Positions 4,293 to 10,322 of a stretch of DNA of 10,322 nucleotides are shown piece after piece. The stretch spans positions 1 through 10,322 of the forward strand of contig DQIO01000254.1 of assembly GCA_020793555.1 (NCBI GenBank). Direction: 5' to 3'. Within the stretch, counting starts at the first letter, position 1; every line of letters begins with the position of its first letter. A program made the translations under genes and the position numbers. Under the pieces are notes generated by a model, which saw nothing but the letters and a program-made list of their open reading frames with translations, searched no databases and had not been told where the DNA came from. This DNA comes from Methanosarcinaceae archaeon (GTDB taxonomy: Archaea > Halobacteriota > Methanosarcinia > Methanosarcinales > Methanosarcinaceae).

Positions 4293-4364
4293 CCTGTGAA
4301 TATAAATTCAAATGTAAATACAAATGTGAATGTAAATACAAATGTTAATGTAAATACAATTTTA
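4293..4364 (-). repeat. 18-bp direct repeat array in the iscS-iscU gap
   Basis: Three consecutive 18-bp units begin at 4311, 4329 and 4347, with a degenerate fourth unit at about 4293-4310. Each contains the near-palindrome TGTAAATACA (4313-4322, 4331-4340, 4349-4358; the fourth position reads TGTGAATATA at 4295-4304). The array is directly upstream of iscU, with a TATA-like AATTTATATTC (minus strand) at its iscU-proximal end. The regular spacing suggests a multi-site operator. Confidence 0.6.
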
Positions 4365-8357: not shown

Positions 8358-9095
8358 TCAGGTTAACTTTGGGGTATCAACTCTTTTCACCTCACTCATC
8401 CACATCCCAATCGTGATCAACCCCAGCGCCGTAGCAGTAACATCCCCATCTCCTTTACCCCACGACCCGTTATCATTCATCTCCCTAAGTAACCACTGAA
8501 CAGGCACATCAAGTTCATCCTTAAATCCCACAAGCATCAGCGCCTGCATAACAATATTGCTCGTTGATATGAACTTCCAGCCACCATCCGTCTCGCGCTC
8601 TGAAAGTATCCACTCTGCGCGCTCATTGATAAAATCGCGATAAACGGCACTGTCCGAGAGTTTGTCTTGCTTCCACAAAGCAGTGATAATAAGAGCTGTT
8701 GTCCCGACATGCTCCCAATCCGCACTATAATTTTCAACAACCCACCTGCACCCATTCTCATTAGATTCACCCATATCCGCAAGAGCCGCCAGTGAGTATG
8801 TTGTATCGTACACATCCTCGTTCCACGAACCGTCGTGCTGCCGGCTTAAAAGCCATCGTTTCGAATCGTTAAACATAATCCCGATAACTGCCAGAGCAGA
8901 ACACGCTCTTGCAGTTTCCCGAACCGAATCATTCCATGCGCCTTCCTGTTTCATGCGAATCAGGCACGCTGTATCATCATTGTTTGGTATGTCCCACAGC
9001 GCGCAGGCTGAGACAATACGGGAAAGTTTCTTGGCAGAGTCCGGTTGCTGGGTTTTTATCCACTTAAATGATTTTTGTACGGCATCAATATCCAT
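8358..9095 (-). CDS. Alpha/alpha-toroid protein (prenyltransferase/terpene cyclase-type repeats), function unknown
   Basis: From the ATG at 9095 the protein has 245 residues and at least four repeats of the form W-L-L-x(5)-D-G-S-W followed by a small-residue helix. They lie at about 50-72 (EGAWNDSVRETARACSALAVIG), 81-108, 162-190 and 201-230, and match the QW-like repeats of squalene cyclase and prenyltransferase toroids. The length is about one toroid, half a class II cyclase. The segment NNDDTA (38-43) resembles the cyclase DxDDTA motif with its first Asp replaced by Asn, so catalysis is doubtful. No signal peptide is seen. The frame extends to 9248, but that extension reads through the repeat array. 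TAAATA at 9119-9124, 26 nt before the ATG, and no Shine-Dalgarno support a leaderless start at 9095. Confidence 0.75.
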   Translation of the reverse strand: MDIDAVQKSFKWIKTQQPDSAKKLSRIVSACALWDIPNNDDTACLIRMKQEGAWNDSVRETARACSALAVIGIMFNDSKRWLLSRQHDGSWNEDVYDTTYSLAALADMGESNENGCRWVVENYSADWEHVGTTALIITALWKQDKLSDSAVYRDFINERAEWILSERETDGGWKFISTSNIVMQALMLVGFKDELDVPVQWLLREMNDNGSWGKGDGDVTATALGLITIGMWMSEVKRVDTPKLT

Positions 9096-9118
9096 GGAAT
9101 ATAAGATGCAGCAATCGG

Positions 9119-9124
9119 TATTTA
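9119..9124 (-). promoter_or_regulatory. TATA-like box of the toroid protein gene
   Basis: Minus-strand TAAATA, in the context ACTAAATACC, is centred about 26 nt upstream of the ATG at 9095, which would give a leaderless mRNA and supports that start over the longer frame. Confidence 0.45.
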
Positions 9125-9193
9125 GTGTTTCTTTTTTGGTATTGAATTTTTGTTCATTTTGGGTTTTTGATATTTGTTCAACCGGTGCTGCGA

Positions 9194-9213
9194 CCGCGCG
9201 AAGCGCGCACGTT
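9194..9213. repeat. GC-rich hairpin element, copy 1
   Basis: The consensus CCGCGCGAARCGCGCRCGTT is shared with 9858-9877. Inside it GCGCG pairs with CGCGC across a 3-nt loop. It sits about 11 bp before the first A-run of the tandem array and stands out sharply from its AT-rich surroundings. Confidence 0.6.
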
Positions 9214-9218
9214 CCCAA

Positions 9219-9657
9219 ATACATAAAAAAGCACATTGGCTGACACACGTATTATATGCAAGTATACATAAAAAAGCACATTGGCTGACACACGTATTAT
9301 ATGCAAGTATACATGAAAAACACACATAGCTATTGCACGCGGATTATGTGTGAGTATACATGAAAAAACACACATAGCCATTGCACGCGGATTATGTGTG
9401 AGTATACATGAAAAAACACACATAGCCATTGCACGCGGATTATGTGTGAGTATACATGAAAAAACACACATAGCCATTGCACGCGGATTATGTGTGAGTA
9501 TACATGAAAAAACACACATAGCCATTGCACGCGGATTATGTGTAAGTACACATAAAAAAACACATAGCCATTGCACGCGGATTATGTGTAAGTACACATA
9601 AAAAAACACATAGCCATTGCACGCGGATTATACGCAAGTATACATGGAAAAAATACA
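9219..9657. repeat. Tandem array of 45-48 bp repeats, nine copies in three classes
   Basis: The anchor AGTA recurs at 9261, 9306, 9353, 9401, 9449, 9497, 9545, 9591 and 9637, so the period is 45, 47, 48, 48, 48, 48, 46 and 46 bp. The first two units contain GCACATTGGCTGACACACG, the middle units CACACATAGCCATTGCACG and the last ones CACATAGCCATTGCACG. In the middle class TATGTGTG and CACACATA form an 8-bp inverted repeat across each unit junction. No unit holds a unique spacer, so this is not CRISPR. Reading frames through the array exist because 48 is divisible by 3 and the unit lacks stops in several frames. Confidence 0.9.
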
Positions 9658-9890
9658 AGTTCTTGTTTGTCATTGGCGTGGAAACTTGCCGCCTGCGGCG
9701 GTTGCTGCGTTTTTAAAACTCAAGTCGATACCGATGTCGCTCCTTGTACTCTCCCTGCTTACCCGGATTCCACTGGCTCGAATGCCCGAATTAGCCTGTT
9801 ACCCTTCATATGTGATCAACAACTTTCTCGCTGCACAAAAGACAGTTTTCGTTCACTCCGCGCGAAACGCGCGCGTTTCTGCATGACTGT
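9646..9890. other. Non-repeat block interrupting the repeat array
   Basis: About 245 bp of different composition separate the array from one further repeat copy. The block contains a GC-rich hairpin (CCGCC/GGCGG, 9689-9701) and ends with GC hairpin copy 2. Plus-strand frames of 89 and 103 codons cross it, but they also run into repeat or hairpin sequence and match no family I know. It may be a small insertion or degraded gene remnant. Confidence 0.45.
9858..9877. repeat. GC-rich hairpin element, copy 2
   Basis: It matches copy 1 at 9194-9213 except at the two R positions (A and G here, G and A there). GCGCG pairs with CGCGC across AAA. It lies about 13 bp before the A-run of the solo repeat, the same arrangement as copy 1 before the array. 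Confidence 0.6.
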
Positions 9891-9934
9891 AAAAACACAT
9901 AGCCATTACACACGGATTATATGCAAGTATATAC
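9891..9934. repeat. Solo copy of the 45-48 bp repeat
   Basis: AAAAACACATAGCCATTACA followed by CACGGATTATATGCAAGTAT matches the array unit with a few changes. Its left half follows the middle and late classes (ACACATAGCCATT), while its right half follows the early class (ATATGCAAGTAT), so it is a hybrid of the array classes. Confidence 0.8.
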
Positions 9935-10040
9935 AAAAGGGGCGCATACTTTTGCAGGTCACCAGAAAGCACATATGAAATAAAAGGAGAGCGAATCAAC
10001 ATCGAGCGGGCTGTTTATCTTGCAACAAAGAGTATATACG

Positions 10041-10111
10041 AACCGCAGGGATTGGAGAGGTCGCACAGAGTTATTGTTTAATCTCTGCGTTCCTCAGCGA
10101 TCTCTGCGGTT
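10041..10111. repeat. CCGCAG-bounded hairpin element, copy 2
   Basis: AACCGCAG (10041-10048) and CTGCGGTT (10104-10111) are perfect 8-bp ends of a 71-bp imperfect palindrome. The inner arms also pair partly, with GAGG against CCTC and CAGAG against CTCTG. The ends and the CTCTGCG strings relate it to the 136-bp element at 1999-2134. Confidence 0.6.
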
Positions 10112-10205
10112 ATTTTATCCATGACTGATTGTCACACAACATCTGAATATATTGTATATTTGTCAAATTGGTTGCACTGCCTACACAATGTTAGGGAGAA
10201 ACATA

Positions 10206-10265
10206 AAAGAAAAGAAAAGAAAAGAATGTTGGTTGGTTTGTTGGTTGGTTTGTTGGTTGGTTGTT
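10206..10265 (+). repeat. AAAAG and GTTGGTTGGTTT microsatellites
   Basis: Four AAAAG-type units (about 10204-10225) are followed at once by three 12-bp units GTTGGTTGGTTT/G (10228-10263). The second tract has six GG doublets separated by 2- or 6-nt loops, a pattern able to form a two-tier G-quadruplex. Confidence 0.75.
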
Positions 10266-10275
10266 ACCGATAACG

Positions 10276-10312
10276 TTCAACCAAAAATGTTGAATGAGAT
10301 CTATGATCTCAT
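10276..10312. repeat. Adjacent short hairpins at the window edge
   Basis: TTCAAC (10276-10281) pairs with GTTGAA (10289-10294), and ATGAGATC (10294-10301) pairs perfectly with GATCTCAT (10305-10312) over a TAT loop. They may belong to the promoter or terminator of a gene beyond the window. Confidence 0.45.
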
Positions 10313-10322
10313 CCAATCGTCC

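Follow-up and report, generated by a model that had tools for sequence, protein, structure and literature searches.

Do nine repeat units of 45 to 48 bp, set head to tail upstream of a widespread gene, perform some service for the archaeon that carries them, or are they an accident of their neighbourhood? The window examined here, 10,322 nt in length, is the whole of contig C315 from a 334-contig, 2.56-Mb genome (G000; 92.7% complete), whose phosphomutase gene has its closest named relatives (89-93% identity) among Methanosarcinaceae MAGs, one of them labelled ANME3_3; on the strength of these relatives we refer to G000 as a putative ANME-3-like Methanosarcinaceae MAG and to its source as an archaeon of the methane-oxidising kind. 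Together with six sister genomes, G001 to G006 (G002 is 83% and G006 60% complete), it forms the genus set used here. We would give a probability of roughly 0.8 to the reading that the array is a non-coding, neutral and unstable minisatellite, grown from a pair of units (A and B) beside a decaying nrdD2 gene and without a dedicated function. The features that bear on the question are:

8358 to 9095, minus strand: cyclase-like gene for a 245-aa protein with weak squalene-hopene-cyclase-like repeat matches (homology search, Pfam)
9096 to 9140, minus strand: conserved core promoter-like stretch with AAACACTAAATA and ACACTAAAT (82-93% identity among G000, G002 and G005)
9191 to 9220, minus strand: left GC hairpin, a diverged REP-like copy (inverse of the right hairpin)
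9221 to 9310, plus strand: two identical A units of 45 bp each (unit alignment)
9311 to 9549, plus strand: B units of 47, 48, 48, 48 and 48 bp (TRF, unit alignment)
9550 to 9641, plus strand: two 46-bp B units, of which the last shares its kind of tail with the detached copy (unit alignment)
9676 to 9719, plus strand: right GC hairpin of a dispersed REP-like family (core exact at 9687-9704)
9728 to 9889, minus strand: 3' remnant (54 codons) of nrdD2, a class III (anaerobic) ribonucleotide reductase, now a pseudogene (PF13597)
about 9891 to 9932, plus strand: detached unit at the nrdD2 truncation point (profile score; 78% identity to the last array unit)
10251 to 10322, plus strand: probable far side of the lost nrdD2 body (matches upstream of intact nrdD2 in G001 and G003)

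Elsewhere the contig carries genes for a PhoU-like protein, a phosphate permease, Nre, an HTH protein, a NifU-type (IscU) protein, a class V aminotransferase of NifS type, SUI1, a DUF192 protein and a sugar phosphomutase. Two short tandem repeats lie in the same window, one of 18 bp (TGTAAATACAAATGTAAA, 4295-4359) and one of 12 bp (TGTTGGTTGGTT, 10227-10263), and positions 10006-10211, with many partial matches across the genus genomes, belong to at least one further family of dispersed repeats. The array is not the only one in G000: in a sample of 170,501 bases (20 stretches picked by contig number) TRF reported, among others, a 48-bp repeat at L177:12556-12698 (3.0 copies) and an 81-bp repeat at L182:5851-6039 (2.3 copies).

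The array consists of nine abutting units (9221-9641) with lengths, in order, of 45, 45, 47, 48, 48, 48, 48, 46 and 46 bp, and a first-pass annotation of this DNA was right to describe a tandem array accompanied by a detached copy. TRF scores the stretch 9306-9657 at 590 with 95% matches, and the longest exact self-match at periods of 40 to 55 runs for 164 nt at period 48, far above chance. Three of the four 48-bp units are identical and the fourth is 96% identical to them, so that the centre of the array is uniform or nearly so and the edge units differ. The annotation had distinguished three unit classes, and three length classes (45, 47-48 and 46 bp) are indeed seen; a 25-base core pattern, however, matches all seven 47-, 48- and 46-bp units and the detached copy with at most one mismatch and neither A unit within three, and since the 47/48-bp and 46-bp classes share this core, we would count two types, A (two units) and B (seven, plus the detached copy). 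By whole-unit identity, calculated from an alignment with flaws at its left edge, the last array unit is closest to its 46-bp neighbour (88%), followed by A (77%) and the 47/48-bp units (73-76%). In the profile search the detached copy, about 250 bp from the end of the array, reaches 45.4 bits (9891-9930). Its nearest relative is the last array unit (78% identity); identity is 70% with A and 65-72% with the remaining B units. The detached copy had been read as a hybrid of early and late halves; the copy itself stands, but its tail appears similar in kind to that of the last array unit, and it therefore need not be a recombinant of A with a late unit.

Like a CRISPR locus, the array is built of direct repeats of 45-48 bp; unlike one, its repeats abut, with no unique spacers between them, and the annotation's dismissal of CRISPR on that ground was sound. 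Head-to-tail units within the range of about 10-100 bp and of high similarity are those of a minisatellite. Open frames of 143 aa (minus strand) and 83 aa (plus strand) cross the array, but the reading frame is not kept through the 46- and 47-bp units, and no counterpart is present in the sister genomes (in G002 a single 54-aa ORF touches the A unit, and in G005 there are two ORFs, unlike those of the array), from which it seems that the array is not part of a conserved repeat protein.

Where else, then, do the units occur? The core pattern, at up to three mismatches, finds eight matches in G000, all eight within the window, and none in G001-G006, where it is too strict and misses units of G002 and G005. 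A sequence-only profile (R1), built from 14 units including those of G002 and G005 and run against 37 genomes (G000 among them, 150 candidates being scored in each), gives 14 hits at E<=5e-7, all of them at the array locus (ten in the window, two in G002 and two in G005); the next best of the candidates has E = 0.019. The fear that the unit might be a common dispersed repeat thus fails, strong hits being confined to one locus in three genomes of a single genus among the 37 searched. G002 and G005 carry, at the equivalent place, a degenerate two-unit version, A then B, that is recognised even by a profile of window units only, at 28.5 and 21.1 bits in G002 and at 17.0 and 5.5 bits in G005. The best scores in these two genomes were reached by none of 1000 dinucleotide shuffles (maxima 11.6 and 8.3), the second G005 unit lying below its shuffle maximum and not being significant alone; with the same profile, no stretch ahead of the cyclase-like gene in the other genomes covered exceeds 1.2 bits. 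In the unit alignment A is closest to the sister A and B to the sister B, the window A units being 72% identical to A of G002 and 65% to A of G005. No match to an exact 25-mer was found in viral contigs.

Copy number therefore stands at nine (plus one) in G000, two in G002 and two, the second weak, in G005, with no strong hit in the other four genus genomes. Such a difference among related genomes is itself characteristic of minisatellites, and it favours the unstable minisatellite that the annotation had listed among its options. The presence of a two-unit A-B version at the equivalent place in both sisters further suggests that an A-B pair was the starting point and that tandem duplication enlarged it to the present array; with the identical central units, it bears out the earlier suggestion of a recent local expansion.

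The neighbourhood in which this growth occurred is not the gene-free block that it had been taken for. The remnant at 9728-9889 matches PF13597 (NRDD) with E 5.6e-8 over positions 509-562 of 562 and contains two in-frame stops, one TGA and one TAA. An RNA gene proposed for 9719-9865, a conserved stretch that recurs in relatives, was rejected, the stretch being the nrdD C-terminus. All seven genus genomes have an nrdD match. A long paralog is open over 774-784 aa in six of them (G000-G005), and the shorter nrdD2 is open over 605-618 aa in G001, G003, G004 and G005 and reduced to the remnant in G000; in G002 it is missed by the family search and its degraded end is seen by DNA comparison, and in G006 (60% complete, with one partial nrdD match) it was not seen. 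The genus thus has two class III ribonucleotide reductase paralogs (window 9728-9889; G000:C25:3846-5720). Positions 10251-10322 match at 92% the DNA upstream of nrdD2 in G001 (C32:57789-57861) and G003 (C201:3705-3775), and the last 45 bases of the window match at 89% upstream of nrdD2 in G004 (C24). Because these bases correspond to the upstream flank of an intact gene, we infer that the nrdD2 body was lost between 9889 and 10251 and that the detached unit begins at the joint.

The association of nrdD with the cyclase-like gene extends beyond the genus, an nrdD C-terminus being present in 12 of 31 distinct 700-bp stretches upstream of the cyclase-like gene (the match at L115 being weak and split), nine of the twelve outside the genus. 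In eight of these nine the nrdD match ends 38-41 bp before the inferred cyclase-like start, and in the ninth (L067) 116 bp before it. The two genes are still adjacent in G000, G002 and G005, with several hundred bases between them, the A-B units included, and are found on different contigs in G001, G003 and G004. At the degraded nrdD2 end of G002 (L066:1676-1765) there is also a short tandem expansion of CGATAC/CGATGT hexamers, which would make two separate origins of repeats at this one decaying gene.

If the array has a function, its target would most naturally be sought in the cyclase-like gene. The protein is widespread in Methanosarcinaceae (47 of 60 genomes, G000 among them, have a match at E<=1e-10), and its Pfam SQHop_cyclase matches, at E 0.006 and 0.011, fall below the cut-off. 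Its promoter motif, which we take to be of leaderless type, includes ACACTAAAT, starting 33 bp before the ATG; the array had been placed directly upstream of a leaderless gene, and such a motif is present, but some 125 bp, the promoter-like stretch among them, separate the ATG at 9095 from the start of the array. An operator or enhancer array, in which a regulator would bind each unit and more units would offer more sites, is the alternative that survives best, and we still hold it to be unlikely. The distance of about 125 bp would suit it, as would the short inverted repeats (hairpins) inside the window B units and the position of the A-B pair, which three species have retained while one adjacent stretch diverged. 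Against it, the inverted repeats are not common to the sisters, and the gene's promoter-like motif is present without any unit upstream in G001, G003 and G004. Across the 31 distinct loci, with and without units, ACACTAAAT lies within 60 bp of the start in 12 and is absent from 19, the G002 copy differing by one base.

Conservation speaks to the same point. Between G002 and G005 identity is 73% for A, 63% for B and 74% for the neighbouring spacer, against 89% for the left hairpin, 60% for the right hairpin and 82% for the promoter; in this comparison, the one with an alignable neighbouring spacer, the units appear no better conserved than the spacer. Between the window and G002 the values are 79% for A, 70-71% for B, 97% and 82% for the left and right hairpins and 93% for the promoter. 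The DNA from promoter to left hairpin cannot be aligned between G000 and either sister, identity being 37% (G002) and 40% (G005) where shuffles give 36% and 38% by chance. This could reflect a replacement in the window; that A-B is recognisable in three species beside it could also be read as mild constraint on the pair. A narrower version of the regulatory idea, slightly less probable again, would make A-B a lineage-specific binding module that was amplified to nine after the loss of nrdD2, its copy number tuning expression of the cyclase-like gene.

A conserved structured RNA element was also considered and rejected: folding z-scores are -0.64 to -1.69 at the window B junctions and +1.46 and +0.31 at the A-B junction, and the sister junctions (+1.35 and +1.66 in G002, +0.29 and -1.35 in G005) fold no better than shuffles to any significant degree. 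The window has no Rfam match at gathering scores, the nine matches in 9000-10322 all being far below them with E>1. The earlier proposal of a DNA-binding array for replication, partition or chromatin fares no better; among the genes annotated on the contig, which ends at 10322, none is for replication or partition, the sisters have only two units each, and there is neither excess unit conservation between G002 and G005 nor a shared structure. None of the tests of conservation, structure, promoter, Rfam and open frames yields a function for the array.

The hairpins raise a further alternative, namely that the units are part of a mobile or structural element of REP-pair or MITE-like kind and spread with it. 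The right hairpin is dispersed, with 8 copies at up to two mismatches in G000, 51 in G001, 135 in G002, 38 in G003, 28 in G004, 65 in G005 and 17 in G006, and no match to a reversed-pattern control in any of the seven; G000 has fewer than any of its six sisters (17-135). The left one is diverged, and the stretch 9191-9226 is conserved at 97% in G002 and 86% in G005. The array lies between the two in minus-then-plus order, which is that of all nine hairpin pairs within 500 bp in G005 (18 of its 65 members; 2000 random placements give a mean of 1.2 close pairs and a maximum of 5). These G005 pairs are 151-246 bp apart. G001 and G003 have a hairpin pair with a different spacer directly behind nrdD2, and three G004 pairs have spacers that resemble part of the G005 spacer beyond its A-B units (71-84% over 58-70 bases), the 84% match, of 58 bases, lying just outside the A unit. 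In 19 hand-picked pairs from G003, G004 and G005, however, matches to the window fall mainly within the hairpins, and the unit is found nowhere else in the profile search of 37 genomes despite the dispersal of the hairpins, which makes this explanation improbable. REPINs consist of two inverted REP hairpins mobilised by a RAYT; our inverted GC hairpins resemble them in being dispersed and in part paired, but the unit is not dispersed and the spacers of the hairpin pairs are long and divergent. Evidence for REP mobilisation is mixed. Y1_Tnp is open in four of the six sisters (G001, G003, G004 and G005), RAYT and IS200 types not being told apart, and none was found in G002 (83% complete and, with 135, richest in hairpins) or in G006 (60% complete); the three matches in G000 (C19:6119-6487, C61:3844-3999 and C313:21317-21475, the third below the family cut-off) all contain in-frame stops. 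We draw no link between the transposase and the hairpins.

Least probable of all is that the assembler made the array or its copy number, an idea encouraged by a 55-base identity between the end of the contig and the beginning of contig C179, of the kind that a k=55 graph would leave, and by the 164-nt exact self-match at period 48, which exceeds 55, but opposed by unit types that differ along the array and by A-B units at the same place in two other assemblies (G002 and G005). With exact periodic stretches longer than the suggested k, the count of 48-bp units in the G000 assembly is insecure and may be wrong; the distinct unit types and the two sister assemblies restrict the doubt mainly to that number.

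How might a neutral minisatellite have come about here? In an ANME-3-like ancestor, hairpin-flanked (REP-pair-like) DNA would have been placed between nrdD2 and the cyclase-like gene, with a spacer of two related units of 45-49 bp, A then B. In the G000 lineage nrdD2 would then have become non-functional and shed most of its body, and tandem duplication of the A-B spacer, presumably by replication slippage or unequal recombination, would have raised A to two copies and B to seven. Turnover would keep the central units alike as those at the edges drifted, and the detached unit would be of terminal type, a copy that stayed behind where the nrdD2 deletion closed. At most, the array might have a mild effect on read-through, or on the DNA context, ahead of the cyclase-like gene.

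A limited search of the published literature did not meet with this array, but it has relatives in kind. Methanosarcina is satellite-rich in a survey of prokaryotic satellites (PMC6749651), which describes its satellites as mostly short repeats and the longer ones as mostly within protein genes. The present array, from a Methanosarcina relative, is likewise tandem, non-coding and of mixed repeat lengths, and differs from the satellites as presented there in that sister species still display the two-unit state from which it would have grown. The tandem repeats of Borgs are described as arising from local sequence (PMC9879509); ours is similarly intergenic, locus-specific, apparently derived from local sequence and set in an ANME-related genome, and is unlike Borg repeats, as characterised in that account, in its imperfect units and in lying on a contig of housekeeping genes with no Borg sign.

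The array thus appears to be a repeat expansion of the ordinary kind whose history happens to be unusually easy to read, and beyond that history and its use as a marker it is ordinary. Within one genus the birth of an archaeal minisatellite can be read from its ancestor-like state, its expanded state, the decaying gene beside it and the hairpins around it, and the array could serve as a strain marker for ANME-3-like archaea.
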